Shown here piece after piece: positions 779 to 22,553 of a stretch of DNA of 36,611 bases. The notes beneath the pieces were generated by a model. It saw only the letters and a list, made by a program, of their open reading frames with translations. It was not told the DNA's origin and made no database searches. A program made the position numbers and the translations under genes. Location: assembly GCA_026709535.1 (NCBI GenBank), contig JAPOST010000059.1, positions 1 through 36,611 on the forward strand. Reading direction: 5' to 3'. Numbering within the stretch: position 1 is the first letter of the stretch; each line of letters opens with the position of its first letter. Source of the stretch: Rhodospirillaceae bacterium. GTDB lineage: Bacteria > Pseudomonadota > Alphaproteobacteria > Bin65.

Positions 779-873
779 CTCAGCCGGCCTCCTCAACCCG
801 GCCAAAATCTTGAATCACAAATCACAAACCCCGTGAATCACCAAGCAATTCAATCAGGTCAGATCACGCTCTA
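245..873 (-). mobile_element. Decayed IS630-type insertion sequence remnant
   Basis: The segment carries a broken IS630-type transposase on the minus strand. On the livF side it ends in a sequence that reads tagagcgtgatctgacctga from base 873 downward on the minus strand, similar to termini of alphaproteobacterial IS630 elements as I remember them. IS630 elements insert at TA, and a TA at 872-873 is part of the livF stop codon. The other end is lost at about base 245 against a different transposase fragment, so no second inverted repeat can be shown. The outer boundary is inferred. Confidence 0.5.
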
Positions 874-3238: not shown

Positions 3239-4122
3239 GTCATCCGCCGCTTTTGGAGCAGGCCTTCGGGGCGGAGCACCAAGACCAAGATAAAGACGCC
3301 GTAGATCAGGATTGACCGAAGATTGGCCGATGTTAGCGCAACACCATAAGTTTCGATGATCCCGAGCAACATGCCCGCGAGAAGCCCACCTGCAAGGTTG
3401 CCGAGGCCACCCAGGATGATTACTACGAATGCGACAATGGTGAACGGAAAGCCCATGAATGGAGAGATTTGTTCCGTCACCCCGATTAGCGCCCCGGCGA
3501 GCCCGGCCAATGCGAAACCCGTCACAAACGCGAAGAGCTGCACCCTGTTGACATCAATCCCGACGATTTGGCTGGCGGTGCGGTTTTGAATCAGCGCACG
3601 TATGGACAAGCCCAGCGGGCTAAGGCGCAGAAAAAAAACAATGAAAATGGAAAGGCCCAAGCACACCAGCAGTGCGGCCATCCGGCTTTGCGTGATGCTG
3701 ATCTCTCCGATTTGGACAAGCGAATCCAAGGCATTATAGGTCCGGGGAGTGGCCGAGAACGCCAATGCCGTTACATTCTGGATGATGATTGAGATGCCGA
3801 AGAAAATCAGCAGCGAATTGGCTTCAATCCGCTCGATCGACTGGCGACCCGACAATTGGCGCCGGAAAAGCCCAAAGTAAAGCGCCGCCCCCAGCAGTCC
3901 TGTCAAGACACCGGCGACAAGCATGGCGATGATCGGTGAAATTGCCGCCAGAGTGAATAACCAATACCCAACATAGCCGCCAATCATGACGAGATCGCCA
4001 TAGGCGATGTTCAGCAAACGCATGGTGCCATAGATCAGGTTCAGACCAAGGGCGACCAACCCGTAGATTGACCCGATTATCAGCGCCGCGATCAGCAACT
4101 GTCCGGAAAGGAGGATGTCCAA
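3235..4122 (-). CDS. livH: ABC transporter permease, LivH type
   Basis: Second inner-membrane permease of the HAAT-type importer, about 295 residues. Typical LivH segments are GSIYGLVALGLNLIYGTMRL and LNIAYGD near the N-terminus, SPLGLSIRALIQNRTASQIV for the ATPase-coupling loop, and FVVIILGGLGNLAGGLLAG later. No ATG lies at the right place. TTG at 4122 has an AGGG nine bases upstream, so I prefer it. The TTG at 4131 is in frame but touches that AGGG directly. The gene follows a hairpin with a T-rich tail (4148-4173), so it is probably transcribed at a lower level than the binding protein upstream. Confidence 0.9.
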   Translation of the reverse strand: MDILLSGQLLIAALIIGSIYGLVALGLNLIYGTMRLLNIAYGDLVMIGGYVGYWLFTLAAISPIIAMLVAGVLTGLLGAALYFGLFRRQLSGRQSIERIEANSLLIFFGISIIIQNVTALAFSATPRTYNALDSLVQIGEISITQSRMAALLVCLGLSIFIVFFLRLSPLGLSIRALIQNRTASQIVGIDVNRVQLFAFVTGFALAGLAGALIGVTEQISPFMGFPFTIVAFVVIILGGLGNLAGGLLAGMLLGIIETYGVALTSANLRSILIYGVFILVLVLRPEGLLQKRRMT

Positions 4123-4147
4123 CGGTGGCAACCCTGCAGAAAGAAAA

Positions 4148-4195: not shown

Positions 4196-5371
4196 CTATT
4201 TCCAGCCGGGCTTTGCCTGCCACTTGGCCGTGGCTCGCGACTTCGGCCACACAATGTGGATATTGCCATCCTGGATTTGCAGGAAGCCGGTCGGTGTAAC
4301 GGCATTCTGCACGCCATCGAACTGGACTCTGCCTATAATCGTGTCGAAGTTGCTGGTCGAGATAACCTTGCGGAGCTTGTCTTTGTCGAGGCCAGCCTTG
4401 GCGACGGCCTGCTCCAGGATTTCAGTCGACACCCACGCTTCGACGGAGTCGAGATAATCCGGCTCCTCTTTGAACTTCTCCAAGTAGGCTGCATAGAAGG
4501 CCTGGGCTCTAGCATTCTCTCCGTGCGGCGACCAGTGTCCCAACGTAACGATCCCGCTTGCTGCATTCTTGAACATGCCACGCCAGAAGCCAATAGCTGG
4601 ACCGACCATGACATATTGAAACTTGGCCTTAAGACCGAGTTCGCGCGCCTTGTTCATGTAAAGGATCGAGTCGCCGGGATAGGCCAGCGCCAGAATAGCA
4701 TCGGGCCTGGCCGCTTTCACCTTAGCCAGGATCGCCGTCATGTCCTTGATATTTGGCGGATAGTCGCTGTCGACAACAACCTTGATATCAGCCGCTTTCA
4801 GAGCCGGCATCAGGAATTTTTTGTTCTCCTGGCCGAATGGCAACTGGTTGGTCAGAATCGCCACCGTCTTGACGCCGGCATTCTTGAGTAGCCCGACCAT
4901 CGCAGCCGCCAGCTTGTCTGGAATGGCGGCTGTCGTGAACCAGATATTGCCCGGCTTCATGCTGCGCAGTTGAACCGATGACGCCGTGCTGCCAATCATC
5001 GGGAATTTGTGCCGCTCCACAACCGAAGCTATGGCAAAATGATGCGGCGTACCCCAGGGTGACAGCAGCAGATCAACCTTGTCCTGGGTAATCAGCTTTT
5101 CATAGATGCGGACAGCGTTTCCGGGGCTGGACTGATCGTCATACTGAACCAGCTTGATCTTTCGTTTTTCCTTCCCGCCAATGTTCAGGCCGCCTCGCGC
5201 ATTCACCTGCTCTGCCCAAAGGTTATAGGCATTGATCTGTGATGGCGCTGCAGGTGCGAACAGGCCGGTTTTCGCGATCGAGTACCCGATCTTCACATCG
5301 GCCGCTCCGGATGGCGACGCCCAGGCAACCGCAAGCGCGGCCGCAGCAAGGATCATCAGGGATTTCATCAT
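4196..5371 (-). CDS. Periplasmic substrate-binding protein of HAAT-type ABC importer
   Basis: A 391-residue extracytoplasmic binding protein of the Peripla_BP_6/LivK type. From ATG at 5371 it has a signal peptide (MMKSLMILAAAALAVAWASP, cleavage probably after SGA near residue 23), then the mature start ADVKIGYSIAKTGLFAP. Conserved features are QYDDQSSPGNAVRIYEKLI, FPMIGSTASS and VKTVAILTNQLPFGQENKKF at the domain crossover. The frame extends five codons upstream, but GGGAG eight bases before 5371 and an ATGA overlap with a small ORF favour this start. It delivers the ligand to LivHMGF. The ligand is not evident from sequence. Operon membership with a ring hydroxylase and a NicX-like dioxygenase suggests an aromatic or N-heterocyclic acid. 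Confidence 0.9.
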   Translation of the reverse strand: MMKSLMILAAAALAVAWASPSGAADVKIGYSIAKTGLFAPAAPSQINAYNLWAEQVNARGGLNIGGKEKRKIKLVQYDDQSSPGNAVRIYEKLITQDKVDLLLSPWGTPHHFAIASVVERHKFPMIGSTASSVQLRSMKPGNIWFTTAAIPDKLAAAMVGLLKNAGVKTVAILTNQLPFGQENKKFLMPALKAADIKVVVDSDYPPNIKDMTAILAKVKAARPDAILALAYPGDSILYMNKARELGLKAKFQYVMVGPAIGFWRGMFKNAASGIVTLGHWSPHGENARAQAFYAAYLEKFKEEPDYLDSVEAWVSTEILEQAVAKAGLDKDKLRKVISTSNFDTIIGRVQFDGVQNAVTPTGFLQIQDGNIHIVWPKSRATAKWQAKPGWK

Positions 5372-5628
5372 CTGTTCTTCTCCCATTTCGATTGCGCTGG
5401 CGCCCAGCGCACCAATACGCGGTCTTCCAAGGCTGCCGCCATCTTCGGATTAACAACGACGCTGTGATGAACAATCCTCTCGTCATCGAGCCAAAGTGAG
5501 CGGCCCGCCATCGGCACGTTGCAGTGCCCTGCAGTCAGCCGGATTGAGCGGCTGAGCATGCATGGCCGGAATTTTTCTACCTGTAACATCTTGGCGACAA
5601 GTTCACAGCATTCATCAAAGATGGTCAA
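5368..5628 (-). CDS. Small ORF of unknown function coupled to the binding-protein gene
   Basis: An open frame fills the gap between the hydrolase stop (5687) and the binding-protein start. It ends in TGA overlapping that start as ATGA, the same coupling seen throughout this operon. From TTG at 5628 it would encode 86 residues including FDECCELVAKMLQVEKF, LTAGHCNVPMAGRSLWLDD and VNPKMAAALEDRVLVRW. A shorter version could begin at ATG 5589. No strong ribosome site is visible and I recognise no family. It may be a real small protein or the degraded remnant of a larger gene. The four-base overlap is its main support. Confidence 0.35.
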   Translation of the reverse strand: MTIFDECCELVAKMLQVEKFRPCMLSRSIRLTAGHCNVPMAGRSLWLDDERIVHHSVVVNPKMAAALEDRVLVRWAPAQSKWEKNR

Positions 5629-5686
5629 TAGAGAACGGCGTTCTTTTTTGGTTTTTGACCATTCAGGCGCCAGCTGCCCTGGAGTG

Positions 5687-6514
5687 TCAGACTTGGCTTT
5701 GCATCCACCTGGCCGCATGCGGCGCCCAATCGCCGTCTGGATCACCCGCTTCCAGGCTGGCGCCGAGATGGTCGCAACCCTCAAGTTCAATTGTCTCGAC
5801 TGATGCCCCGGCTTTACGCAGCGCCAAGGCCATATCGGCACCCTGTTGCTTCAGATGGGGGAAATCGTCACTGCCCCATGCCATGAAGAAGGGCGGCGCA
5901 TGTCTGATGTTGACGACAGGGCTGGCCTGCTGATCGGTTTCGGAGTCTTCCGGTCCAAGAAATCGCGGTCGCGCCGACATGCCGTTGCCTTCGCGACAAT
6001 CGTACACCCCGGAGATCGGCAGGCATCCTTTCACAATATCCGATGCCATATTGCGGGGACGCTGCCAATCCGTCGATACTGCCATCAGGGAAGAATAGTG
6101 ACCGCCGGCAGAATGGCCGCCAACGAACACGCGATCCGGCCGGCCGCCGAACTCCCCGATCCTGTCGACCAGCCCTGCAAAACCGTCCAGAACATCTTGA
6201 TATCCATCTGGAAAAAAGACTCTGGGCGCCAGACGATATCCGATGGAAGCAAATGTAATGCCCCATTGCGACAACGCCGGGCCCATGAAGGCCATCCATT
6301 CCTTGTAACCACTGATCCAGCCGCCGCCGTGGACAAAGGCTAGTACATGGCCGGTCGGGTTATTGGCCCGGCAGACCAGAACGCTCTGATAGGCGTCTTC
6401 TCCGTACAGAAATTCCTCGTAATCAAGCATTTCCGCGCGACTGATACAGGCGTCGTGATAGGGTTTCGCAAAATCCGATAGCGGTTCCTGCGGTGGATAG
6501 TCCTCAATTTTCAA
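5687..6514 (-). CDS. Alpha/beta hydrolase, formamidase/HSL-like
   Basis: A 275-residue cytoplasmic alpha/beta hydrolase. The oxyanion-hole motif HGGGW is at residues 62-66, the nucleophile elbow GGHSAGGH puts the catalytic Ser at 135, and the probable acid and base are Asp216 or Asp217 (AWGSDDFPH) and His249 (GCDHLGAS). The fold resembles kynurenine-formamidase/HSL-type enzymes, which cleave N-formyl amides or short esters. It overlaps the large hydroxylase subunit by 11 bases, so it belongs to the operon. NicX-type ring cleavage yields N-formylmaleamate, which in known nicotinate pathways is deformylated by the alpha/beta hydrolase NicD. I infer an equivalent deformylase role here. It could instead hydrolyse an ester or lactone of another intermediate. 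Confidence 0.85.
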   Translation of the reverse strand: MKIEDYPPQEPLSDFAKPYHDACISRAEMLDYEEFLYGEDAYQSVLVCRANNPTGHVLAFVHGGGWISGYKEWMAFMGPALSQWGITFASIGYRLAPRVFFPDGYQDVLDGFAGLVDRIGEFGGRPDRVFVGGHSAGGHYSSLMAVSTDWQRPRNMASDIVKGCLPISGVYDCREGNGMSARPRFLGPEDSETDQQASPVVNIRHAPPFFMAWGSDDFPHLKQQGADMALALRKAGASVETIELEGCDHLGASLEAGDPDGDWAPHAARWMQSQV

Positions 6515-8834
6515 CGGACTGCTCCAGCATGCCGTTCAGAACCCGTTCCGGTATGATCGGCAGACGGCGCTGTCGACAACGGGTCGCCGCTGCAACTGCA
6601 TTTGCAATGGCGGCCGGGACCGGGACCAAGCCGACCTCGCCGACGCCCTTGGCGCCGAACGGGCCGTCCGGTTCGGCCGCTTCCACAATGATCGATTCGA
6701 TTTCAAGTGGCGAATCAAGAGTTGTCGGCACCTTGTAGTCCAGCATGGACGGATTGACGAGGCGCGGACCGTCAAACACCATCTCTTCGGTCAGGGCAAA
6801 TCCCATTCCCTGAACGAAACCACCTTCGATCTGCCCCTCGACAGAGCCCGGATTGATGGCCTTGCCAACATCCATTGCCGACCAGACATCGGTTACCTCC
6901 GTCTTGCCGGTCGTCTCGTCAATTTCGACGGCGACCACGAGGCAGCCGAAGCTGTAGACACCGATCTGAGGAAACGGCAGGCCCGTCGCCACGGCGCGTT
7001 TCGGATCGACGCTGGGCTGGTCGAAGACCCATGTGTCCGAGCCGACGATCGGCCCGCCTGCTGCCCAATGGGCTCGAGCCGAAATCTCGAAGTAGGTGAG
7101 TTCCCTGTCCGGCACCCCAACGATCCCGACCCGCCCGCCGTCGCGAAGCTCAAGGTCTTCGACAGCACATTCGAAGATTTCCGACGCCTGCTGCTTGATC
7201 TGTCCGGCAACGACCTCGGAAGCGGCGACAACCGACCGACCGGTCGTATAGGTGACGCGGCTGGCGGTAGTCCCCCAATTGTAGGGCGAGCCGTCTGTGT
7301 CGGGACTTGCAATGGCAACACGGTCCGCAGGCACTTTGAGCGTTGATGCACACATCTGTGTCAGCACCGTATCGGAGCCTTGGCCAATGTCGACCGCGCC
7401 CGTATTGAGAACCACCGAGCCGTCTTCCAGAAGCCGGACGATGGCGCCGGTACCCAAGAGCCCGCTGATATGGGCGCAAGCCGCCACGCCAAGGGCGCGG
7501 CGCGTGCCCGACGTTGTCGGGGCTCGGGTTCCGGCGGCGCGCCAATCTGATGCTGCCTTGGCCTTCCCCAGACATTCAGCCAATCCGTTGGAAGCAACTT
7601 CGCCGCCACCGAACCAGCGATCTCCCGGCTGCATGATGTTCTTTTCGCGAAGATCAAAGGAATCAATACCGAGCAGTTCGGCGATCTCGTCAAGCTGCTG
7701 CTCTGTGGCGAAGGTGACCTGAGGATTGCCGAAACCCCGAAAGGCGCCAAAGCGCATCCGATTCGTGTAGACCAGCTTGCCGTGGCAGCGACAATTCGGG
7801 ATCCGATAAGGACCCCGGCTCATCAGCAGGCTGTAGCCCAGCACACCCGGGCTGTCGTCACCGTAGGCGCCACAGTCCAGGATTGCCTCCAGCTCCCGCG
7901 CGACGAGGGTTCCATCCTTCCTTGCGCCGGTCTTGCAACGAATCTTGAACGGGTGCCTGGCGCGTACAATCTCGAAATCTTCGACCCGGTTCAGGATTAG
8001 CTTGACCGGACGGCCGGTCTTCAGAGCCAATTGCACAACCAGCGGCTGGACGTGCGGCTCCATCTTGTTGCCGAACCCAGCGCCAACCTTCGGCGTCAGA
8101 GATCGCAACTTTGACATCGGCAGTTGCAGGCTCTCGCAAACGTTGGCCTGAACGCGAAACACGGACTGATTTGCTGACCACAGCGTAACCCGTCCCTCCG
8201 CGTCGATTTCGGCGAGGGCGCCAACAGGCTCTATCGAAAGATGGGCCTGAGCGGGGGTTTCAAACTCGCCTTCAACGATGATGTCACAATCATCCCAAGC
8301 CGATTCGACGTCGCCTTCTTCAATCGACGTTTCGGAAGCGATGTTACCGCCGCAAATCACCGGAAAAACCTTGAAATAGTCGGTCAGACCCTCGTGAACG
8401 ACCGCTGCCCCGTCAGCCATCGCTTCTTCCGGCGTCGCGACGACCGGCAGATCTTCATATTCCATGCGAACCAGGGCTGCAGCGCGCCGAGCTGTACTCT
8501 CGTCTTCGGCCGCCACGACAGCCACGGGTTCGCCGAGATATCGCACCTTGTCCTTGGCGATAGCGTGTTCGTCCTTGATGAACGCGCCCATTCGGCCGTC
8601 TGGAAAATCCTTGCCGGTCAATACACATGCGACACCCGGCACGGCCAGCGCCTCGTTGCAGTCGTATCCCTTGATTCTGGCGTGAGCGACGGTGCTGCCG
8701 TGAATTGCTGCGTACAACATGCCGGGCCGCACCATGTCGGCGATGTATTGCGCACGTCCGGTGACCTTGTCGCGAGCATCTGCGCGCGGCAGACTGGTGC
8801 CAACGCCGGTTTCTGTGGTATCAAGCGAACTCAA
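6504..8834 (-). CDS. Molybdenum hydroxylase large (Mo-pterin) subunit, xanthine dehydrogenase family
   Basis: The catalytic subunit of a three-part molybdenum hydroxylase, 776 residues, expected to hydroxylate an N-heteroaromatic ring with water as oxygen source. The frame is open much further upstream, but that part overlaps the iron-sulfur subunit. A TTG at 8834 overlapping its stop as TTGA, with GGAG eight bases upstream, gives the usual N-terminus (SLPRADARDKVTGRAQYIAD). Cofactor motifs include KVGAGFGNKMEPH, FGAFRGFGNPQVTFATEQ, VDIGQGSDTVLTQM and AKGVGEVGLVPVPAAIANAV; the last holds the conserved catalytic Glu near residue 733. AFRGFGNPQ resembles xanthine dehydrogenase and aromatic hydroxylases, and the AYRCSFR active-site loop of CO dehydrogenase is absent. 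The substrate is not readable from sequence. Nicotinate-, hydroxypyridine- or quinoline-type hydroxylation is plausible given the NicX neighbour. Confidence 0.92.
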   Translation of the reverse strand: MSSLDTTETGVGTSLPRADARDKVTGRAQYIADMVRPGMLYAAIHGSTVAHARIKGYDCNEALAVPGVACVLTGKDFPDGRMGAFIKDEHAIAKDKVRYLGEPVAVVAAEDESTARRAAALVRMEYEDLPVVATPEEAMADGAAVVHEGLTDYFKVFPVICGGNIASETSIEEGDVESAWDDCDIIVEGEFETPAQAHLSIEPVGALAEIDAEGRVTLWSANQSVFRVQANVCESLQLPMSKLRSLTPKVGAGFGNKMEPHVQPLVVQLALKTGRPVKLILNRVEDFEIVRARHPFKIRCKTGARKDGTLVARELEAILDCGAYGDDSPGVLGYSLLMSRGPYRIPNCRCHGKLVYTNRMRFGAFRGFGNPQVTFATEQQLDEIAELLGIDSFDLREKNIMQPGDRWFGGGEVASNGLAECLGKAKAASDWRAAGTRAPTTSGTRRALGVAACAHISGLLGTGAIVRLLEDGSVVLNTGAVDIGQGSDTVLTQMCASTLKVPADRVAIASPDTDGSPYNWGTTASRVTYTTGRSVVAASEVVAGQIKQQASEIFECAVEDLELRDGGRVGIVGVPDRELTYFEISARAHWAAGGPIVGSDTWVFDQPSVDPKRAVATGLPFPQIGVYSFGCLVVAVEIDETTGKTEVTDVWSAMDVGKAINPGSVEGQIEGGFVQGMGFALTEEMVFDGPRLVNPSMLDYKVPTTLDSPLEIESIIVEAAEPDGPFGAKGVGEVGLVPVPAAIANAVAAATRCRQRRLPIIPERVLNGMLEQSVEN

Positions 8835-9304
8835 GGCCGAGTCTCCGAAGCCTTGACAATCGCCTCGACGATTTTCTTGTAACCGGAACACCGGCACAGA
8901 TTGCCTGACAACCCGGCCCGGACTTCCTCTGCGGTCAACGCACGGTTTCCTCGCAACAAGGCGTGGGCACTGATCATAATTCCGGGAGAGCAGAATCCGC
9001 ATTGTACGGCATTGCCGGAGACAAATTCTTGCTGCACTGACGAAAGGGCACCATCCAGCGCAAGACCCTCTACCGTCGTGATATCCTGATCTGTGCAATT
9101 CGCTGCCAGAGAAAGACAGCTACGCATTGGCGCGCCGTCGACCATCACGGTACAAGCTCCGCAAACTCCCTGATTGCAGCCGCGCTTGGCTCCTGTCAGC
9201 GCCAGTTTCTCCCTCAAAACGGTCAAGAGGGTTGTCCCGGCAGTGACGCCCGCTACGCTGTGCCCAACTCCGTTGATCATCAGTTTGATCGCGTCTGTGC
9301 TCAT
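8831..9304 (-). CDS. Molybdenum hydroxylase small subunit, 2x[2Fe-2S]
   Basis: Electron-transfer subunit of the hydroxylase, 157 residues. The N-terminal plant-type ferredoxin domain carries Cys43, Cys48 and Cys51 (GCNQGVCGACTVMVDG) and Cys63. The C-terminal four-helix domain carries Cys102, Cys105 (QCGFCSPGIM), Cys137 and Cys139 (GNLCRCSGY). All eight cluster ligands are therefore present. The ATG at 9304 overlaps the FAD-subunit stop as ATGA and the stop overlaps the large-subunit TTG, so the three subunits are coupled for 1:1:1 synthesis. It passes electrons from the molybdenum site toward FAD. CoxS, NdhS and NicA-type proteins are the relatives. Confidence 0.95.
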   Translation of the reverse strand: MSTDAIKLMINGVGHSVAGVTAGTTLLTVLREKLALTGAKRGCNQGVCGACTVMVDGAPMRSCLSLAANCTDQDITTVEGLALDGALSSVQQEFVSGNAVQCGFCSPGIMISAHALLRGNRALTAEEVRAGLSGNLCRCSGYKKIVEAIVKASETRP

Positions 9305-10155
9305 CGGACCTCCGACAGCACTTTCTGGGCTTTGCGAATCGCCTGACGGACCATGCGCGGCGCGACCCGGCGGCGATATTCGGCGCTGGCACGCACGTCA
9401 TCAACCGGGTCAAGCAAGGCATCCAGGGCATCGGTCAATCGCGCGATGGCAGAATTATCAAGACGACCTCCCATGATGTCTGCTTCTCCCTCGCGGCTGC
9501 GTGCCGGCTTTGGCCCGCATGCGCCCACGGCAACGGCAAGGTAGGAACACACCTCTTCCTCCATCGCCATGACTAGCGCCACGGAAGCGATCGCGAAATC
9601 GCCGGAGACGCGCGCAAGTTTTGTATAATTTCCAATCGACCCTGAATGCGCTGGCGGAATTACAACAAACTCGATCAGTTCGCCGTCCTTGAGAGCCGTT
9701 TCGTACCAATCGACAAAGAAGTCGTCAGCAGACACCGTGCGATGGCCCTCTGAACTTCTCAGAAGAAACCTCGCATCGGCAGCGACCAGAGCCGGGGGGT
9801 AGTCTGCTGCCGGGTCGAAGAAGGCGCAAGAGCCACCCATCGTACCCATATTGCGCACCGGCGGGTTGGCAATCTGCCGTGCCGCTTCGCTGATCACCGA
9901 CTGGCCGTCGCGAAAATTTGTTTCCTGCGCTGTTTCCCGGTGATGCCTCATGGCTCCGATGACGACGCTTCCATCCGCCTGATATCGGACATGGCGAAGA
10001 GCAGGAATATTGCGCAAGGACACCAACCGATCCGGCGCCACGAGATCGGAATTCATCATGGCGACCAGGGTCGCGCCGCCGGACAGGCAAGCGGCGCCGT
10101 CTTCCTGGAGCGCATCGACAGCCGCGTCGAGACTGTCCGGTTTGACAAGTTCCAT
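9301..10155 (-). CDS. Molybdenum hydroxylase medium (FAD) subunit
   Basis: FAD-binding subunit of the hydroxylase, 284 residues, CoxM type. The FAD pyrophosphate loops are visible: LSGGATLVAMMN around residues 24-35 and RNMGTMGGSCAFFDPAADYP at 101-120, followed by the CO dehydrogenase flavoprotein C-terminal domain (SGDFAIASVALVM and on). It should take electrons from the iron-sulfur subunit and reduce NAD+, a quinone or another acceptor. The gene lies seven bases after the CoxG-like gene and overlaps the small-subunit start. The presence of an FAD subunit distinguishes the enzyme from two-subunit, cytochrome-linked nicotinate hydroxylases of the NicAB type. Confidence 0.93.
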   Translation of the reverse strand: MELVKPDSLDAAVDALQEDGAACLSGGATLVAMMNSDLVAPDRLVSLRNIPALRHVRYQADGSVVIGAMRHHRETAQETNFRDGQSVISEAARQIANPPVRNMGTMGGSCAFFDPAADYPPALVAADARFLLRSSEGHRTVSADDFFVDWYETALKDGELIEFVVIPPAHSGSIGNYTKLARVSGDFAIASVALVMAMEEEVCSYLAVAVGACGPKPARSREGEADIMGGRLDNSAIARLTDALDALLDPVDDVRASAEYRRRVAPRMVRQAIRKAQKVLSEVR

Positions 10156-10161
10156 GATGGA

Positions 10162-10620
10162 CTACCCGTTCACAACAGCATTCAACCGATCTTCAAGACT
10201 GGACGCAAATTCCTCGGCAAGGGACTGTGCTTTCTTCTTCATCATCCCGAAACCGAATTTCGCCAGGCGCCCGGTAACCAATACCTCGGATTCATAGAGA
10301 ACTTTGGTGGCGCCGCCATCAAGCGGTTCAAGGGTCAGCGTATTCTCCGCTTGCACCTTGCTGGCCCGATCACCCTCTTTGCCGCGAGAGATGAAAACGA
10401 TCCGGGTTGGCGGTTGTTCTTCCAGCACTTCTACCTTGAGGGCAAAAATTGCCGAAATCGGGCCAATCTTGATCCTGACCTTCGCGCGATAGAACGTATC
10501 GGAAACTGTTTCAATTTCCTCGCAACCAGGCATGCAGGTACCGACAATTGCAGGGTCGGTAATTGCTGTCCAGGTTCTGTCAATCGGTGCTTGCACGACG
10601 AAACTGTCCGCAATCCTCAT
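10162..10620 (-). CDS. CoxG-like SRPBCC family protein
   Basis: A 152-residue member of the SRPBCC/CoxG (carbon monoxide dehydrogenase subunit G) family. I start it at ATG 10620 (MRIADSFVVQAPIDRTW), where family members begin. The longer frame would overlap the dioxygenase gene. The family pattern TDPAIVGTCMPGCEEIE is at residues 21-37 and the C-terminal helix contains KKKAQSLAEEFASSLEDRL. CoxG-type proteins occur in many molybdenum hydroxylase operons and are thought to help maturation or membrane attachment of the enzyme. They are not catalytic subunits. Its position directly before the FAD subunit fits such a role here. The C-terminal membrane anchor seen in some CoxG proteins is not present. 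Confidence 0.88.
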   Translation of the reverse strand: MRIADSFVVQAPIDRTWTAITDPAIVGTCMPGCEEIETVSDTFYRAKVRIKIGPISAIFALKVEVLEEQPPTRIVFISRGKEGDRASKVQAENTLTLEPLDGGATKVLYESEVLVTGRLAKFGFGMMKKKAQSLAEEFASSLEDRLNAVVNG

Positions 10621-10648
10621 GGGCTGGAGCCTTGATACATCTGTGATT

Positions 10649-11728
10649 CTAGCGCGGCTCGCGGGCGACAATCATGTTCTCGTCGACGATTTTACCTCTA
10701 TCAATGATGACCTTGTTGTCCAGCGTTATCGTACAATCACGCATTGGCACGTCATAGTGACCGCGGGTGTTACGTTTGCCGCCGCCTTGGGTATTGGGAC
10801 CGGTTGAGAACAGAAAGTTGCCAGGAAAGGTCCGTGCCGCTGCACGACTCCGCTCCGGCTCGTCGCCGTTCAAGGCAATGCCATACCACAACGCCTGCGG
10901 ATTGAGGCCCCAGCCGAGATGGGATACGGCATAGGGGTCCATGTCGTTCTCGTTTTCCTGATTGTCGTCCAGCCAATCCCGCATCAGCTTGGCGTCCAAG
11001 CCACCCTTTATCTCACGGATGTAGCCGTTCTCAATCGTGAGGTGGACAGGATCCTGGATGTATCTGCAATAGGGCAGGATGACGATATCGCCGGGAGCCA
11101 ACACCACCGCACCTCTGGCCGATCCTTCGTTGGGAAAGGTATGGATATGCCCGCCACCCCAATGGTCGAACCGACCAGGCGCATCGGCATAACCCCATTG
11201 GGTCATCACCGGATACTCACCGCACTCCCAAGTCAGGTCTGTCCCAGCGACACTGGTAACGCGTGCTACCTTTGTTTTCCTGTAAAGTGCTTCGCCATAA
11301 AGGCAGGCCTCCTTGAGGCCGCTAGGGGCTTGTAGCTGCTCCAGGTCATCAGGGGCATCAATGATCATTTGAACCCTGGCCCCTGCGTCCATCACCTCCT
11401 TGAGCCACTTGGTAAAGAGCGGAACATGAAATATGATAATCATGTCGGCGGCTTTCACCGCTTCCAATGTCCCCTTGCATTGTCCGATCGTCGGAACACC
11501 GACTTTGGTCCACGAAGGAATGTTGTTCACGCACATCTCGTAAATATCGGCGCCCAACTCGTCGGCCGCTGCAAAAGCTGCTTCAATGAATTCTCGCCTG
11601 GTGGACAGGTCGGAAACGCACGCAATCGTCTCTCCTTGCCGCACGTTGCACAGTTGGAACTGCCTTTTGTAAAGCGTTGCCAATTTGGCCGGATTGACCT
11701 CTTGCGTGCGCTGATTGAGATGCACCAT
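10649..11728 (-). CDS. nicX: NicX-like 2,5-dihydroxypyridine 5,6-dioxygenase
   Basis: A 359-residue protein of the M29-peptidase-like family that includes NicX, the non-heme iron dioxygenase that opens 2,5-dihydroxypyridine to N-formylmaleamate in aerobic nicotinate degradation. Shared blocks, judged from memory of Pseudomonas NicX, are GYADAPGRFDHWGGG (179-193), FPNEGSARGAVVL (198-210), SHLGWGLNPQALW (269-281), GNFLFSTGPNTQGGGKR (303-319) and GHYDVPMRDCTITLDNK (323-339). His270, His324 and Asp326 align with the iron ligands reported for NicX. The ATG at 11728 follows GGGAG by six bases. It is the first gene of the leftward operon, just inside the palindromic operator. The family also contains uncharacterised members, so the true substrate could be a substituted dihydroxypyridine or another N-heterocycle. 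The symbol is by similarity. Confidence 0.8.
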   Translation of the reverse strand: MVHLNQRTQEVNPAKLATLYKRQFQLCNVRQGETIACVSDLSTRREFIEAAFAAADELGADIYEMCVNNIPSWTKVGVPTIGQCKGTLEAVKAADMIIIFHVPLFTKWLKEVMDAGARVQMIIDAPDDLEQLQAPSGLKEACLYGEALYRKTKVARVTSVAGTDLTWECGEYPVMTQWGYADAPGRFDHWGGGHIHTFPNEGSARGAVVLAPGDIVILPYCRYIQDPVHLTIENGYIREIKGGLDAKLMRDWLDDNQENENDMDPYAVSHLGWGLNPQALWYGIALNGDEPERSRAAARTFPGNFLFSTGPNTQGGGKRNTRGHYDVPMRDCTITLDNKVIIDRGKIVDENMIVAREPR

Positions 11729-11759
11729 CTTCGTTCTCCCAGAATCGCAGCCAGTGACG

Positions 11760-11790
11760 CCCCATAAACGAACGTTGTTCGTTTATGGGG
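11760..11790. promoter_or_regulatory. 31-base perfect palindrome, probable TetR-family operator
   Basis: Two 14-base arms, CCCCATAAACGAAC and its exact reverse complement, separated by GTT. It lies between the divergent nicX and TetR genes, 31 bases before the nicX start codon and 46 before the regulator. It sits where the transcript of the leftward operon would begin, just downstream of the inferred -10. Size and symmetry fit a TetR dimer or pair of dimers. The natural reading is that the neighbouring TetR protein represses the catabolic operon, and perhaps itself, until a pathway ligand binds. Confidence 0.85.
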
Positions 11791-11793
11791 CGA

Positions 11794-11823
11794 AGATTAC
11801 GGTTGAGGCATCAGAACAGTCAA
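11794..11823 (-). promoter_or_regulatory. Sigma-70-like promoter of the nicX operon
   Basis: On the minus strand a TTGACT (11823-11818) and a TAATCT (11799-11794) are separated by 18 bases. Both are close to the -35 and -10 consensus. Transcription would start at about 11787, inside the palindromic operator, so repressor binding would block initiation directly. The same 108-base gap must also hold the regulator's own promoter, for which I see only weak matches. Confidence 0.6.
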
Positions 11824-11836
11824 GGTCGATTCGACA

Positions 11837-12421
11837 ATGGCGCAAACCAAGAAGGACGATGTCCGCACCAAGATCGTGGAGAGCGCCCGAAATGAATTCC
11901 AGGACCATGGCTATGCTGCATCGACGATTCGGGGCATTGCCAAGCGCGCGGGCATATCGACGTCGAACGTGTATGTCTATTTTGAATCCAAACTGGAGTT
12001 GCTGTTCGCGATCTACGATCCATGGCTCCGCGCCCAGATTCTGCAACTTGAGGCGCAGGCAGCGGAAATCGCTGATCCCAAGGAAAGATTAAGAGCGATC
12101 ATTGCGACTCTTTGGGAGACATTTCCAGCGGCTGATGGGGGCTTCGGTACTATCTTCATCGAGGGCCTCGCCGTATCGGGGCGCGAAGGGCAGTATTCGC
12201 GAGACCTTCTCCATTGGGCCGAAGAGCGTCTGTCGACGCTAGTCGCGTCCTGCGTGCCTCAAGAACGCGCAGATCAATTTTCGGATACAGCTTTTGCCCA
12301 CATTCTCTTCATGGCGTTCGATGGCTTCGCGTTGAACTACGGCTTGATTGGCCCCTCACGCCGCCTTGATCGCTGCCTCGACCTGATTGTCGACTTGATT
12401 GTCTCGGATTTTGAAACATAA
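11837..12421 (+). CDS. TetR/AcrR-family transcriptional regulator
   Basis: A 194-residue one-component regulator. The N-terminal HTH is typical: VESARNEFQDHGYAASTIRG, then IAKRAGISTSNVYVYFESK, residues about 14-53. The remainder is an all-helical ligand and dimer domain of no recognised specificity. The ATG at 11837 has AAGG eleven bases upstream. It is divergent from nicX and shares with it the gap holding the 31-base palindrome. It is therefore the likely local repressor, with the aromatic substrate or an intermediate (or a CoA thioester) as inducer. That it also controls the downstream TRAP/CoA genes on its own strand is possible but not shown. Confidence 0.9.
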   Translation: MAQTKKDDVRTKIVESARNEFQDHGYAASTIRGIAKRAGISTSNVYVYFESKLELLFAIYDPWLRAQILQLEAQAAEIADPKERLRAIIATLWETFPAADGGFGTIFIEGLAVSGREGQYSRDLLHWAEERLSTLVASCVPQERADQFSDTAFAHILFMAFDGFALNYGLIGPSRRLDRCLDLIVDLIVSDFET

Positions 12422-12641
12422 GCCCTTGATTTTATTATTTTTTGTGAATAAATGACTTGCGCGCCGCGCGAAACTTCGCGTGGAAGGAGTTCTGAGCCGC
12501 TGAAAACGGCGGACGACGGTATGGGGCATCAAGCGCTACTGGCAGCGCGAGGCAAGAGTGGACCGGATCGGATCGAACGCTTGAAGAAAACCAAAGCCTG
12601 GGGCCAATCGATACTTCACCAACAAGTTCTCACAAGGTGAT
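12422..12641. other. Intergenic region upstream of the TRAP leader ORF
   Basis: No coding region is supported here. Just after the TetR stop is an A/T-rich stretch (TTTTATTATTTTTTGTG, about 12430-12446) without a stable stem, and an imperfect palindrome CGCGAAACTTCGCG at about 12468-12481. I see no second copy of the 31-base operator, so control of the TRAP genes by the same regulator is not supported by this gap. The remaining sequence looks featureless. Confidence 0.4.
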
Positions 12642-12776
12642 ATGCAAGTTTCGCTCGAAGTTTCCGCCGCTCCTTTCGGTCTCCGTTTCAATGGCGTGAT
12701 CTTGAAGGGAAAGCACAGGGTGTTTTTCAGTCAAGGACTGATGAGGAAATACAGCCAGAGTCAATCTTTGAAATGA
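12642..12776 (+). CDS. 44-residue leader ORF coupled to dctQ
   Basis: An ATG at 12642 preceded by AAGGTG opens a frame of 44 codons, beginning MQVSLEVSAAPFGLRFNG and ending MRKYSQSQSLK. Its TGA overlaps the dctQ ATG as ATGA. dctQ has no ribosome site of its own (the bases before it are caatctttgaa), so translation of dctQ would depend on ribosomes finishing this ORF. A hairpin TCAGTC-AAG-GACTGA (12727-12741) lies inside it. It could be a regulatory leader or a true small protein. No homology is recognised. Confidence 0.4.
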   Translation: MQVSLEVSAAPFGLRFNGVILKGKHRVFFSQGLMRKYSQSQSLK

Positions 12777-13252
12777 TCACGTTGTTTTACAGACTTTGCG
12801 ACAGGGTTGAAACTGTCCTCAAGATTGTCGGAACGATCCTCTTCTGCATCATGATTTTCGCGGTGTCGTACGAGATCGTGATGCGCTACGTTTTCAACGC
12901 TCCGACGTTCTGGTCAGAGGCGTTGGCGCGCTACTCGATGATCTGGATTGTGACTCTCGGCCTGGCCGTTGGAATCCGTCAGTGTCAGAATATCCATGTC
13001 GATTTCGTCGCCCGCCAGGTTCCCCCAGCGCTAAAGACGATATTCGCCTGGATGCGCTTTCTGGCCGTCTTGGGTTTTGCCGGCGTCCTGCTTGTCTATG
13101 GCACCCAGCATTCCATTGCCAATCTTGGGCAGACCGTCACCGGTCTCGAGGTCTCAGCCTTCTATGTCTACCTCTGCGTGCCGATATCCGGCGCGGCAAT
13201 GATCCTTTTCATCCTTGAACTCATCGTCAAAGGTGAAAGAGGGCTCTTCTGA
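12773..13252 (+). CDS. dctQ: TRAP transporter small permease, DctQ type
   Basis: The small membrane subunit of a tripartite ATP-independent periplasmic transporter, 159 residues with four hydrophobic helices. DctQ hallmarks are EIVMRYVFNAPTFWSEALAR, WIVTLGLAVGIRQCQNIHVD and YLCVPISGAAMILF. It anchors the binding protein to the large subunit DctM. Its stop overlaps the dctM start (TGATG) and its own start overlaps a 44-codon leader ORF. TRAP systems usually import organic acid anions with a sodium or proton gradient. Here it may import a related acid or recapture an intermediate. Confidence 0.9.
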   Translation: MITLFYRLCDRVETVLKIVGTILFCIMIFAVSYEIVMRYVFNAPTFWSEALARYSMIWIVTLGLAVGIRQCQNIHVDFVARQVPPALKTIFAWMRFLAVLGFAGVLLVYGTQHSIANLGQTVTGLEVSAFYVYLCVPISGAAMILFILELIVKGERGLF

Positions 13253-14529
13253 TGGCGCTCACCCTTTTGATCGGTGTCTTGATCGTGACGCTGATCATTG
13301 GATTGCCTCTGCCGTTCTGCATGGGGTCTGCAGCTCTTGTTGCACTCCTGTTTCTGGACTTTCCCATTCCGCTGACAATCGTTCCACAGCGGTTCATTTC
13401 CGGCATCGACTCGTTTTCGTTCATGGCCATCCCGTTCTTCCTTCTGGTTGGCGATCTCATGAACAATGCAGGCGTTACCAAGCGTATCATCCGCCTGTCG
13501 AACGCATTGGTCGGTCACCTGGCTGGTGGGCTGGCGCAAGTCAACGTTGTGAGCTCGATGTTTTTCGGAGGCATTTCCGGTTCGTCGACAGCAGATACGG
13601 CCTCCATTGGCTCAATCCTGATTCCATCCATGGTGAAAGAAAAATACGACCCGGCATTCGCCGTTGCCTTGACGGCGACATCATCGTGCTGCGGACCGAT
13701 TATTCCGCCGAGCATAGGGCTGATTCTCTATGGCGTTATCGCAAATGTCTCGATCACCAAGCTCTTTCTTGCAGGCTACATACCCGGCCTCATGCTCGGC
13801 GGGTCGCTCCTCTTGACCAGCTATTTCATTTCCAAGAAGCGAGGCTACCCAACTCATCCGAGGGCCGGCATCAGGGAAGTCCTGGTGGCTCTGCGCGAGA
13901 GCTTCTTTGCAGCCGCACTGCCTTTCCTGATCATCGGCGGTTTGCTGACCGGCGTCTTCTCCGTTACCGAAGCAGCCGGCGTGGCTGTCGTCTATACGCT
14001 GCTTGTTGGTCTGGTGATCTATCGCGAACTTACAATTTTCGATGTATTCCGAACCATGCGCGATGCCGTGGTCAAGGTTGGCACCATGATGTCGATCGCG
14101 GCATCAGCCCTGATCTTCGCCTGGGTCCTGACCATTCAGGAAGTTCCCCAGAACCTGGCGACCACGATACTCGCGATCTCAGACGACAAATACGTCATCT
14201 TGCTCATGCTGAACCTGCTTTTCCTCTTTATCGGCATGTTCATGGAGCCCAAGGCAACGCTGTTGATCCTTATGCCCGTACTTCTGCCGGTCTTGCCGCC
14301 CCTGGGCATTGACCTTGTCCACTTCGGCATCGTGATCATCTTCAACAGCCTGATCGGACTCATAACACCGCCCATCGGAATCGTGCTCAGTCTTGCATCA
14401 AAAATAGGCAACGTCCCCATAGACAAGGCCGCGGTCGCATCCCTGCCATTTCTTGGCGCAATGGTAATCGTCCTGATCATCATCACGTACGTACCGGCGA
14501 TCGTGCTGTTCCTCCCTAACCTGTTCTGA
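13252..14529 (+). CDS. dctM: TRAP transporter large permease, DctM type
   Basis: The transport subunit of the TRAP system, 425 residues with about a dozen membrane helices. Recognisable DctM segments are FSFMAIPFFLLVGDLMNNAG, MFFGGISGSSTADTASIGSI, CCGPIIPPSIGLILYGVI and LNLLFLFIGMFMEPKATLLI. Near the C-terminus comes GLITPPIGIVLSLASKIGN. The length is normal. ATG at 13252 is coupled to dctQ. A short gap with a good ribosome site then leads to dctP, so the gene order is Q-M-P. Confidence 0.93.
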   Translation: MALTLLIGVLIVTLIIGLPLPFCMGSAALVALLFLDFPIPLTIVPQRFISGIDSFSFMAIPFFLLVGDLMNNAGVTKRIIRLSNALVGHLAGGLAQVNVVSSMFFGGISGSSTADTASIGSILIPSMVKEKYDPAFAVALTATSSCCGPIIPPSIGLILYGVIANVSITKLFLAGYIPGLMLGGSLLLTSYFISKKRGYPTHPRAGIREVLVALRESFFAAALPFLIIGGLLTGVFSVTEAAGVAVVYTLLVGLVIYRELTIFDVFRTMRDAVVKVGTMMSIAASALIFAWVLTIQEVPQNLATTILAISDDKYVILLMLNLLFLFIGMFMEPKATLLILMPVLLPVLPPLGIDLVHFGIVIIFNSLIGLITPPIGIVLSLASKIGNVPIDKAAVASLPFLGAMVIVLIIITYVPAIVLFLPNLF

Positions 14530-14584
14530 TGAACAGGTTGGAAACTCAACCCGCGCCAACAAACAGACCGAGGAGAAAGTCATC

Positions 14585-15553
14585 ATGAAAACGAAACTGA
14601 AGGTCCTCACCGGCATCGGGATGTCCGCCCTGCTGTTGGGCAGTTGGCCTGCTCTGGCAGAAACCAAGATATCGCTGGCGCACGTTGCCAACACAGAAGA
14701 CGCCGTTCACGCTGCTGCCTTGACATTCGCGCGTGTGGCGAAAGCGGAGTCCGGCGGCGAACTGAATATTCGAATCTTTCCGAGCAGTCAGTTGGGCAAA
14801 GGCAAGGAAGTCCTCGAGGGCATCCAGCAGGGCACGATCGGAATGGCCGTTGATACTCTCGGCAGGGTATCGAAATTCCACAAACTCGCCGGCATCGAAA
14901 GCATGCCCTATCTCTTCAAGGACGCCGACCACTACTTCAAGATCTGGAATGGCCCGGTCGGCAAAGAGATCAAGGACAAGATCGCCAAGGAAGCCAACTT
15001 CAGGTTCATCGGCCACATGTTTCGCGGCACACGTGAATTGACATCCAACCGCAAGATCACCTCCATCAAGGACCTCGCCGGTCTCAAGATTCGGGTAACG
15101 CCGATCAAGGAGCGTCTCGCAACTTGGAAGGCCTTTGGCGCAAGCCCGACCCCGATGGCCTGGTCGGAAGTGTTCACGTCGCTTCAGCAGGGTGTGATTG
15201 AAGCCCAGGAAAATCCGGCCCCGGTGATCATCTCCCAGAAACTGCATGAGGTTCAGAAATACATGATCCTCACTTCACACATGGCAAACGGCTGGACCTT
15301 CGTCTTCAACGCCAAGAAATTCGAGGCGATGCCAGAAAAATTGAGAACCGCTCTGCACAAGGCGGCAGATGCCGCCTCCAGGCAGTTCAACGACAACTAC
15401 AAGACCAATCGCACAAAAGTACTGGCGAAGATCAAAGGACTGGGTGTCGAGATCATCACAATTGATCAGGCGCCGTTCCGTGCAAAGGCCAAGGAGGTGG
15501 TGGCACAGTTCCCGCATTTGAAGCCATGGTACGACAGGATGGTCGCCCAGTAG
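14585..15553 (+). CDS. dctP: TRAP transporter substrate-binding protein, DctP type
   Basis: Periplasmic solute-binding protein of the TRAP transporter, 322 residues. A signal peptide occupies residues 1-25 with cleavage likely after PALA, before ETKISLAHV. The DctP motifs follow: SQLGKGKEVLEGIQQGTIGM, then the conserved Arg170 in GLKIRV, which in this family salt-bridges the carboxylate of the ligand. The W-E-V-F-(T/S)-S-L-Q-Q-G segment and NPAPVI are also present. The ATG at 14585 follows GGAG. The retained arginine supports a carboxylic acid substrate. The identity of the acid is not determinable from sequence. Confidence 0.92.
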   Translation: MKTKLKVLTGIGMSALLLGSWPALAETKISLAHVANTEDAVHAAALTFARVAKAESGGELNIRIFPSSQLGKGKEVLEGIQQGTIGMAVDTLGRVSKFHKLAGIESMPYLFKDADHYFKIWNGPVGKEIKDKIAKEANFRFIGHMFRGTRELTSNRKITSIKDLAGLKIRVTPIKERLATWKAFGASPTPMAWSEVFTSLQQGVIEAQENPAPVIISQKLHEVQKYMILTSHMANGWTFVFNAKKFEAMPEKLRTALHKAADAASRQFNDNYKTNRTKVLAKIKGLGVEIITIDQAPFRAKAKEVVAQFPHLKPWYDRMVAQ

Positions 15554-15605
15554 GCATCCGGCTGCTTCCCGTCATCCAATTCGCTTCCTTGATCGGAGAC
15601 TACAG

Positions 15606-16811
15606 GTGCAGAACGGCGAATACTGGCCTGATGCAGCGGGGCCCCTGAAAGGGACGCGTGTCATCGACATGACGCGACTGGCGGCGGGAAACATGCTGAC
15701 TCATTTGCTTGCCGACTTCGGGGCGGAAGTCATCAAGATTGAACGCCCCGGTGTCGGCGACGACCTCAGACGCTTCGGTGATGAAGGCGTCTGGTGGAAG
15801 GAATATGCGCGCTCCAAGAAAAGCTTCACGCTCGACTTCAAGAGCAAAGAAGGCAGAAAACTGCTTTTTGAGCTCGTTGCCAGATCGGACGTACTGGTCG
15901 AGAATTTCGTGCCCGGAACCCTCGAGAAATGGGGAATGGGACCGGCAGAGTTCCTCCGAGACAACCCCGATCTGATTGTCATTCGGGTTTCGGGATGGGG
16001 CCAGACCGGACCCTATGCGCACAAACCCGGCTTTGGCACCCTGATCGAGGCCATGACCGGCTTTGCCGCGATGACCGGCTTTGAAGACCGCCCCCCGTTG
16101 CTGCCGCCGATGGCGCTAGCCGACATGGTTGCCGGCACTGCCGGCTTCGGGGCCGCTGCCGTTGCTCTCTTGGCGCGTGAAAAAGGCAAGGCCCGGGGAC
16201 AGGTCATCGACCTGTCGCTTTTCGAACCTCTTTTCAGTGTGATTGGTCCATGGGTCGCCCATTTCAAGACCACCGGCAAAATTCCGGTCCGCGAAGGCAA
16301 TCGGACAAAGGTTGCCGCGCCGCGCAATGTCTATAAATGTTCCGACGGGAAGTATCTCGCGCTCTCAGCCTCGATGCAGTCGATGTGGGAGAAAGTCGCC
16401 CACGCAATCGGGCGGCCAGAGCTGATTGAGGATGAGCGCTACGGAACCGGAAGCGATCGGGTGCGAAATATTGTAACCCTCGATGAAATTGTCGGCGGAT
16501 TCATCGGTGCAAGAACACTTGCCGACAATCTCTCCCACTTTGAAGCGGCTGGCGTCACGGTCGGCCCAATTTGCGACCCGACCGACCTGATTGATCACGA
16601 GTACATTCGCGGCCGCGGCGTCGTTGAGGATTTTCCCGATACAGACCATGGAACGGTCCCGCTCCACGGCGTGTTCCCGAGATTGAGCGAGACGCCAGGA
16701 ACCATCAGGTCGCCGGCCCCGCTGTTGGGGGAACACACGGAAGAAATCCTTGATCTACTCGGCGTGGCCCCAGAGCAACGCGATGAATTGCTCAGCGCCG
16801 GCATAGTCTGA
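15606..16811 (+). CDS. CaiB/BaiF (family III) CoA-transferase
   Basis: A 401-residue cytoplasmic family III CoA-transferase. The start is GTG at 15606 with GGAG about eight bases upstream. Family signs are LKGTRVIDMTRLAAGNMLTH, LADFGAEVIKIERPGVGDD, the catalytic Asp173 in MALADMVAGTAGF, and RGQVIDLSLFE. It moves CoA from a donor such as succinyl-CoA to an organic acid. The stop overlaps the start of the CitE-like gene, so transferase and lyase are coupled. That pairing is known for (citra)malate activation and cleavage, which leads me to propose a C4 or C5 hydroxy-diacid from ring cleavage as acceptor. Activation of the aromatic acid itself cannot be excluded. Confidence 0.88.
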   Translation: MQNGEYWPDAAGPLKGTRVIDMTRLAAGNMLTHLLADFGAEVIKIERPGVGDDLRRFGDEGVWWKEYARSKKSFTLDFKSKEGRKLLFELVARSDVLVENFVPGTLEKWGMGPAEFLRDNPDLIVIRVSGWGQTGPYAHKPGFGTLIEAMTGFAAMTGFEDRPPLLPPMALADMVAGTAGFGAAAVALLAREKGKARGQVIDLSLFEPLFSVIGPWVAHFKTTGKIPVREGNRTKVAAPRNVYKCSDGKYLALSASMQSMWEKVAHAIGRPELIEDERYGTGSDRVRNIVTLDEIVGGFIGARTLADNLSHFEAAGVTVGPICDPTDLIDHEYIRGRGVVEDFPDTDHGTVPLHGVFPRLSETPGTIRSPAPLLGEHTEEILDLLGVAPEQRDELLSAGIV

Positions 16812-17683
16812 TGTGGCGCTCGACCCTGTTTGTGCCGGTTCTGGAAGAACGGTTCTTGGCCAAGGCGTCAACGCGCCAAGCCGACGCCATCGTATTGGAC
16901 CTCGAAGCCGGCATCGCGGCTGGCCGAAAGGCCGAGGCGCGCGCGGCCTTGCCGTCAGCAATCGAACGGCTTTGCGCACAGAATCAGGATGTCATGGTGC
17001 GGATCAACATGCTGTGGCGTCCCGCACTCCACGATATCGAATACGCCGTACAGGCTGGTGTCAAAGCAATTGTCATCCCGGGTTGCGAGTCGCGGAGCCA
17101 GATTGAGGCCGTGGATGCTGTCGTCGGTGAGTTGGAGGTCGAGAAGGGGCTTCCCAATAGTCAGATATGTCTGATCCCGATTATTGAATCTTCCCGCGGT
17201 GTGCGCGATGCCGACACCGTGCTGCGGGCTTCAGACCGTATAGCTTGCGCCGCTTTCGGCATCGAAGATTATCTGTCTGACATGTCCGCCTGTCCCTCGA
17301 TCGAACTGCTGACCATGACGTCTCTGTCACTCGCGGAGGCTGCCCGAGCAGCCAGCGTCATACCGCTTGTCATCCCCGAATCGCTGGCAAATCTCTCGGA
17401 TCTTGATGCGTTCGAGGCGGCTGCCCGGCGGGGTCGACAGATGGGATCGGAAGGCGGCTTTGCCGTTCATCCGGGACAGGTCGAGCGGCTCAATCGGGTC
17501 TTTACTCCGGCGCCGGAGGAACTTGAAATCGCTAAGCGAATCATTGCCACCGCCCGGGAGGCGGAGGCAGCGGGCAAAGGTGCGGCGCGGCTTGACGGCC
17601 GGATGATCGACCTGCCGATCATCATTCGTGCGAAACGATTGCTGGATCGCGGCAAACGCCTTGGCCTGCTATCAACCGAATGA
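16811..17683 (+). CDS. CitE/HpcH-family acyl-CoA lyase
   Basis: A 290-residue TIM-barrel protein of the HpcH/HpaI-CitE superfamily (citrate lyase beta, malyl-CoA and citramalyl-CoA lyases). Visible active-site segments are IVLDLEAGI (28-36), VRINMLWR with Arg64, IPIIESSRG with the metal ligand Glu126, and FGIEDYLSDMSA with Asp153 as second metal ligand. GFAVHPGQVERLNRVF marks the C-terminal lid region. ATG at 16811 overlaps the CoA-transferase stop (TGATG). The likely reaction is magnesium-dependent C-C cleavage of a CoA thioester such as malyl- or citramalyl-CoA into acetyl-CoA plus glyoxylate or pyruvate. DLEAG replaces the more usual DLEDA, so the specificity may differ. Confidence 0.85.
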   Translation: MWRSTLFVPVLEERFLAKASTRQADAIVLDLEAGIAAGRKAEARAALPSAIERLCAQNQDVMVRINMLWRPALHDIEYAVQAGVKAIVIPGCESRSQIEAVDAVVGELEVEKGLPNSQICLIPIIESSRGVRDADTVLRASDRIACAAFGIEDYLSDMSACPSIELLTMTSLSLAEAARAASVIPLVIPESLANLSDLDAFEAAARRGRQMGSEGGFAVHPGQVERLNRVFTPAPEELEIAKRIIATAREAEAAGKGAARLDGRMIDLPIIIRAKRLLDRGKRLGLLSTE

Positions 17684-18428: not shown

Positions 18429-18628
18429 GACGTCTGACTCCGATAGCGTCGGGCGTGTCGACAGTGCAGAAAGCGCTGCGGTATTTGACAGGGAGAGCAA
18501 GGCGCCCAGCGTCATGACCGAGGGTTCGGTCTATACTGTCGTGGCCGGGCAGCTTTCCTGATGTGATCTAACCTTCTTTGCGACGCGGCGGCTGGTCGTC
18601 TGCGCTGCAATCAATCTGGAGAGACTTC

Positions 18629-19672: not shown

Positions 19673-19680
19673 ATGGGTTC

Positions 19681-22543: not shown

Positions 22544-22553
22544 CGGGGCTGAC

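Follow-up and report, generated by a model that had tools for sequence, protein, structure and literature searches.

A conserved TetR-linked operon with a NicX-like dioxygenase and a molybdenum hydroxylase: a candidate locus for the degradation of an N-heteroaromatic compound

Does an operon that combines a NicX-like ring-cleaving dioxygenase with a molybdenum (Mo) hydroxylase serve the degradation of nicotinate or that of another N-heteroaromatic compound? This question is raised by a stretch of 36,611 nucleotides from a Rhodospirillaceae bacterium (contig JAPOST010000059.1 of assembly GCA_026709535.1; hereafter, the window), which lies on contig C96 of a draft genome (3.67 Mb) whose closest named relatives, as judged by the NicX gene, are Rhodospirillaceae metagenome-assembled genomes (MAGs), including Spongia_Bin9. 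Eleven genes follow one another on its minus strand from 11728 to 871 and encode, in this order, the NicX-like protein, CoxG, the FAD, 2Fe-2S and molybdenum cofactor (MoCo) subunits of the hydroxylase, an alpha/beta hydrolase, a substrate-binding protein (SBP) and LivH, LivM, LivG and LivF; the gene of a TetR-family regulator diverges from them. A preliminary description had placed a degradation locus at 4196-17683. Its core proved to be a real unit, while its left edge was too short, as LivHMGF runs to 871, and its right half, which encodes a tripartite ATP-independent periplasmic (TRAP) importer, a CoA-transferase and a CitE-like lyase, lies outside the conserved unit. In our judgement, the eleven genes rather probably form a catabolic operon, controlled by TetR, for an N-heteroaromatic compound that is imported and is most likely of the pyridine type and not nicotinate.

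The dioxygenase and its subfamily

Pfam and NCBIfam searches of the protein encoded at 10652-11728 matched no model. Pseudomonas putida NicX (2,5-dihydroxypyridine 5,6-dioxygenase of strain KT2440; 7cn3, 7cnt and 7cup), which among the close relatives is the only one for which a solved structure was found, matches it over its full length (phmmer, E 3.5e-64), and an AlphaFold model built from 40 relatives (predicted local distance difference test, pLDDT, 86.9) gave template modelling (TM) scores of 0.87/0.90 to 7cn3. The next fold matches of this predicted model were M29 aminopeptidases (TM 0.57-0.64), and relatives of NicX often carry the annotation leucyl aminopeptidase. A peptidase reading was ruled out because there was no Pfam match and the TM score was at most 0.64 compared to 0.87 for NicX. 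The structure-based comparison that had been proposed in the preliminary description, which was run on the predicted model, thus places the protein with the NicX fold and not with the peptidases. As judged by its sequence and the model, it is a true homologue of the NicX-family dioxygenases, and its gene heads the operon, as had been suggested.

The residues whose roles were taken from the work on NicX, i.e., the Fe ligands His265, Ser302, His318 and Asp320, as well as Arg293 (PMC7910607), are kept in all 73 members of the clade to which the window protein belongs, as is Leu104, and His189 is kept in 71 of them (NicX numbering). His105 is replaced by Phe in the window protein; Phe is also found in eight of the nine canonical enzymes, and the H105F variant of NicX is active (PMC7910607). 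Position 177, in contrast, is Gln in 73/73 clade members and Glu in 9/9 canonical NicX proteins. In NicX, Glu177 contacts the substrate at N1 and O1, and the E177A variant retains 2.7% of the activity (PMC7910607). The missing Glu177 therefore lowers the claim that the protein is a 2,5-dihydroxypyridine dioxygenase, but not the claim that it works like NicX. Further differences from P. putida NicX are an identity of 35-36% and the exchanges V175M, C76V and, mostly, E308Q. A quick maximum-likelihood tree placed the 73 clade sequences and the nine canonical ones on opposite sides of one branch (Shimodaira-Hasegawa-like approximate likelihood ratio test, SH-aLRT, 100), although long branches outside these two groups make any finer placement unsafe. 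By sequence, the Gln177 proteins are a separate NicX subfamily.

Tandem pairs of clade genes were observed at two loci, L035 (1159-3358; 56-57% to the window protein) and L057 (3013-5286; 70-72%). The Ruegeria clade gene (L050, 9986-11059) contains an in-frame TAA, and the remaining operon looks intact.

Partner genes, conservation and regulation of the operon

The first six genes, from NicX to the hydrolase, are separated by 28, 6, -4, -4 and -11 nt, which is operon-like, and a gap of 300 nt follows between the hydrolase and the SBP. All four families of the three-subunit Mo hydroxylase with FAD subunit and CoxG, as proposed earlier, were matched in Pfam, and the same is true for the SBP, two permeases and two ATPases of the Liv-type importer. 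With the xanthine dehydrogenase/4-hydroxybenzoyl-CoA reductase family the hydroxylase shares the three-subunit L/M/S layout, the MoCo domains, the AFRGFG motif and the catalytic Glu region, the large subunit having both AFRGFG and the glutamate of GVGE. None of the NCBIfam equivalog cut-offs for Mo hydroxylase subunits was reached. An aerobic CO dehydrogenase (CoxMSL) was ruled out by the absence of the AYxCSFR active-site motif from the large subunit, and 4-hydroxybenzoyl-CoA reductase by equivalog scores of 557.8/994.6 (alpha), 151.7/257.8 and 95.6/404.6 bits, which missed all of its cut-offs; the FAD subunit fits the beta model of this enzyme only partly. The hydrolase had been called formamidase-like. 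It is indeed an alpha/beta hydrolase, but the formamidase label is weak, as the protein belongs to Abhydrolase_3 (HSL/esterase type) and kynurenine formamidase is a distant match (E 9e-6); no alignment with canonical NicD was obtained.

A contig scan of genomes with one query yielded 71 loci, most of which belong to alpha-, beta- and gammaproteobacteria, and neighbours within 6.5 kb were counted in the 50 loci that had at least 6 kb downstream. Variovorax, Ruegeria, Rubrivivax-type MAGs, Aestuariivita and others share the order TetR / NicX-CoxG-FAD-FeS-Mo-hydrolase-SBP-LivHMGF, with identities of about 35-86%. A Mo large subunit was found in 39 of the 50 loci (34 of the same family, the rest of different families), the hydrolase in 37, TetR in 32, and CoxG and LivH in 29 each. 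The core set that was first seen in the window thus recurs together in other genomes, as the neighbourhood search suggested in the preliminary description could reveal, and both the counts and the gene order support one conserved operon of the NicX-like dioxygenase, the Mo hydroxylase and the hydrolase. The distance matrices of the partners correlated with that of NicX (Mantel; Mo large subunit 0.74, hydrolase 0.69, SBP 0.70; 0/999 permutations), which indicates common descent, with co-function and joint vertical inheritance not separated. That the genes are tied by function, and not simply by a shared ancestry, is suggested by the loci at which the partner Mo hydroxylase comes from a different family (large subunit 27-36% identity), namely those of gammaproteobacterial MAGs (L020-L026) as well as L010-L022, L070 and L075. 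A literature search, outside which most subscription papers lay, found no description of the operon or its function.

A palindromic operator-like site lies between the TetR gene and NicX and is unique in the genome when up to three mismatches are allowed. A related site, TAnCGAAYnnnRTTCGnTA, was found at -220 to +60 of NicX in 39 of the 42 TetR-bearing loci, again at ≤3 mismatches, compared to a background rate of 0.013 per 280 bp; the pattern was derived from some of the same loci, which makes the ratio somewhat self-favouring, and the excess is still very large. In 16 other genomes, scans mostly picked up the site at NicX; further sites occurred at roughly the rate of the control. These observations suggest that TetR binds the palindromic site, and it may act as a repressor of the operon. 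In a betaproteobacterial locus (L042), a second operator-like site is present between an SsuA-type SBP gene and the genes for a Rieske oxygenase and a gentisate-dioxygenase-like protein, so that a TetR-type site precedes both this group and NicX. Tandem operator-like sites were also seen before a flavin monooxygenase gene in Neopusillimonas (L173).

Substrate, lower pathway and alternative explanations

From the gene content we infer the following steps and their order. The Liv-type ABC importer would take up a polar ring compound, and the CoxG-assisted Mo hydroxylase would put a hydroxyl group beside the ring nitrogen, with the electrons passing via two 2Fe-2S clusters to FAD. The NicX-like Fe(II)/O2 enzyme would open the resulting dihydroxy ring, and the alpha/beta hydrolase would hydrolyse the N-formyl amide or an equivalent. 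Since a flavin monooxygenase is missing from the operon, the hydroxyl para to the new one is expected either to be already present in the substrate, as in the 3-hydroxypyridine type, or to be added by a monooxygenase from elsewhere. A 3-hydroxypyridine-type compound is therefore our leading guess. The conversion of 3-hydroxypyridine via 2,5-dihydroxypyridine to N-formylmaleamate is known in Agrobacterium sp. DW-1 (PMC6525221). The predicted logic is the same, i.e., alpha-hydroxylation, Fe(II) cleavage of a 2,5-dihydroxypyridine and deformylation, whereas the maleamate step lies outside the window operon.

The relation to the nicotinate (nic) clusters was approached in several ways. When the window was searched by tblastn with Azospirillum NicC, NicD, NicE and NicF, there were matches to NicX only and not the content of a canonical nic cluster; compared to P. 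putida, the operon has a Mo hydroxylase and lacks NicC, NicD, NicE and NicF. A nic cluster on an Azospirillum ramasamyi plasmid (L096) shares with the window the Liv-type importer, NicX, an alpha/beta hydrolase and a nearby TetR, but differs in having a flavin monooxygenase, an Asp/Glu racemase (NicE-like), a NicD-type hydrolase and NicF; the part of it that is shown contains no Mo hydroxylase. Since a Liv operon can also accompany a canonical nic cluster, the importer does not set the window operon apart from the nic clusters. In seven of the 50 genomes, among them Variovorax genomes (L044, L045, L053 and L062), a canonical NicX (69-74% to that of Azospirillum) with neighbouring NicD and NicF is also present elsewhere, and the presence of both systems in one cell suggests two substrates. 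Together with the invariant Gln177 of the separate clade, this supports the earlier proposal of another substrate. A NicF homologue was present in 11 of 20 clade genomes, in seven of them as part of a separate canonical nic cluster, and could not be upheld as a universal partner. The remaining nine had none at E≤1e-30, an absence that is soft, since this count, like that of the seven genomes, includes drafts and MAGs.

The window genome itself has one NicX only. On another of its contigs (C4; L109, 7932-15317), we found a homologue of NicF (56% to that of Azospirillum; 3ot4/3uao, E 2.7e-64), two Amdase-family proteins, a flavin monooxygenase (with PnpA and HspB as its nearest relatives of solved structure), a lactonase-like metallo-beta-lactamase protein and a thiamine pyrophosphate enzyme. 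Two cysteines mark maleate isomerase, and one of the Amdase-family proteins has both cysteine motifs (NicE-like; only 24-26% to Azospirillum NicE), while the other does not. This stretch is possibly a second pyridine-type catabolic locus, and a maleamate-type lower route is possible in the window genome. In Aestuariivita (L054), homologues of four C4 genes (monooxygenase 46%, short-chain dehydrogenase/reductase 45%, Amdase 53%, NicF 39%) lie on the stretch of the NicX operon, beyond its TetR. It is true that NicC, NicE and NicF are missing at the locus, as had been noted, but the argument built on this absence does not stand, because homologues of the lower steps (NicF, NicE-like and HspB-like) are found on C4.

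The same C4 genes lend themselves to an alternative in which the operon leads by another route to ordinary 2,5-dihydroxypyridine: 3-hydroxypyridine would be the substrate of the Mo hydroxylase, the dioxygenase would be a functional NicX, and the maleamate amidase and maleate isomerase would come from elsewhere, in this genome from C4. The retained Fe ligands, Arg293, His189 and Leu104, the canonical and active Phe105, the single NicX in a genome that nonetheless encodes NicF and a two-cysteine NicE-like protein, the arrangement in Aestuariivita and the known route of strain DW-1 all speak for it. We still regard it as unlikely, if worth serious attention, as the contact to N1 and O1 is Gln throughout the clade, nine of the 20 genomes are without a NicF homologue at E≤1e-30 and few loci have NicF close to the operon. 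It is more doubtful that the subfamily has turned to something other than a monocyclic pyridine (for example a fused, indole-type or gentisate-like ring), with the hydrolase acting like kynurenine formamidase. A gentisate-1,2-dioxygenase-like cupin recurs near the clade gene (L046 (11108), L052, L040, L070, L075, L010, L015, L017, L022 and L064), often where the alpha/beta hydrolase is missing. At L042 (1549-7253) and L061 (1459-5325), the clade gene and the hydrolase stand beside a Rieske oxygenase with 7yls/8h2t as its best PDB match, which we take to be the indole-acetate oxygenase IadDE, and the double operator-like site of L042 points in the same direction. Two gene clusters (c27 and c28) that had been considered as TRAP subunits are both Rieske oxygenase subunits. 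However, the cupin and Rieske genes are absent from the window operon, and the part of the iad-locus literature that was available names no NicX-like enzyme. The flavin monooxygenases near NicX at L010, L015, L017, L020, L023 and L024 and the Rieske oxygenases of L042 and L061 are compatible with an added hydroxyl and also with other rings.

A single 13-kb locus, in which the CoA-transferase, the CitE-like lyase and the TRAP importer provide the lower pathway and a second importer, had been suggested by their adjacency and by the TRAP genes being downstream of and codirectional with TetR. These genes are real, but this reading is largely refuted, and we assign it hardly any probability: CitE is near NicX in none of the 50 loci, a CitE ortholog (66-70%) and its CoA-transferase (75-77%) lie on other contigs in four sister genomes, two further sister genomes have no CitE match above 37%, and there is no second operator site in the genome. 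A CoA-transferase, a CitE-type lyase and a TRAP importer are, moreover, a self-sufficient set for a hydroxy-dicarboxylate, and the gene evidence leads us to judge them an unrelated neighbouring module.

Several points weigh against the catabolic operon for a pyridine-type compound that we prefer. Some clade loci are without any Mo hydroxylase or hydrolase, and the gentisate-dioxygenase-like and Rieske neighbours at others misfit a simple pyridine route. A related sequence in another gene context (L097) has Gln at position 177 yet groups with canonical NicX, and the position could thus be neutral. The locus counts rest on relatives from one query, close relatives included. Tentatively, the Gln177 subfamily may open a heteroaromatic compound that no known pathway opens in this way, and the operon may represent a widespread undescribed catabolic pathway of soil, freshwater, marine and sponge-associated bacteria. 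This second NicX subfamily is widely distributed, its active-site change is fixed, its operon is clean and its operator-like site is defined, so that the way to a new N-heteroaromatic pathway can be tested directly, and isolates of Variovorax, Bradyrhizobium and Ruegeria are at hand.

Features of the window and neighbouring genes

Table 1. Coordinates of the operon, its regulator and the adjoining genes in the window
Feature	Position	Strand	Evidence
NicX-family ring-cleaving Fe(II) dioxygenase homologue, Gln177 subfamily	10649..11728 (protein 10652-11728)	-	phmmer vs 7cn3; AlphaFold model; Fe ligands
CoxG-like protein (Mo hydroxylase accessory)	10162..10620	-	Pfam COXG E 1.4e-18; start placed at ATG 10620
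FAD subunit, Mo hydroxylase	9301..10155	-	Pfam FAD_binding_5 and CO_deh_flav_C; 284 aa with 4 Cys; TIGR03195 match partial
[2Fe-2S] subunit, Mo hydroxylase	8831..9304	-	Pfam Fer2 and Fer2_2; 9 Cys
Molybdopterin large subunit	6504..8834 (start likely 8834 rather than 9098)	-	Pfam Ald_Xan_dh_C, MoCoBD_1, MoCoBD_2
Alpha/beta hydrolase (Abhydrolase_3), proposed N-formyl/amide hydrolase	5687..6514	-	Pfam E 1.3e-22; HGGGW and GHSAG motifs
Periplasmic substrate-binding protein, Liv/HAAT type	4196..5386	-	Pfam Peripla_BP_6 E 5.9e-63
LivH-type permease	3235..4131	-	Pfam BPD_transp_2
LivM-type permease	2300..3238	-	Pfam BPD_transp_2
LivG-type ATPase	1587..2303 (start near 2303)	-	Pfam ABC_tran and BCA_ABC_TP_C
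LivF-type ATPase	871..1590	-	Pfam ABC_tran
TetR-family regulator, divergent from NicX	11837..12421	+	Pfam TetR_N
Palindromic operator-like site ATAAACGAAC-GTT-GTTCGTTTAT, between TetR and NicX	11764..11786	no strand	Genome-wide pattern search; related sites in other loci
DctQ, DctM, DctP, class III CoA-transferase, CitE-like (CitE/HpcH) lyase; judged outside operon	12773..17683	+	Pfam

The CitE gene is followed by ordinary phosphate uptake and signalling genes (PstS-like, two permeases, PstB-like ATPase, PhoU-like and PhoB-like; 18578-24914). Further along, a probably broken MZA-type anti-phage locus was observed at 29390-35728, which comprises an AIPR protein over three open reading frames (MzaE-like), DUF4420/MzaD-like and Z1/MzaC-like proteins, a truncated C5 cytosine methyltransferase and a Vsr endonuclease.

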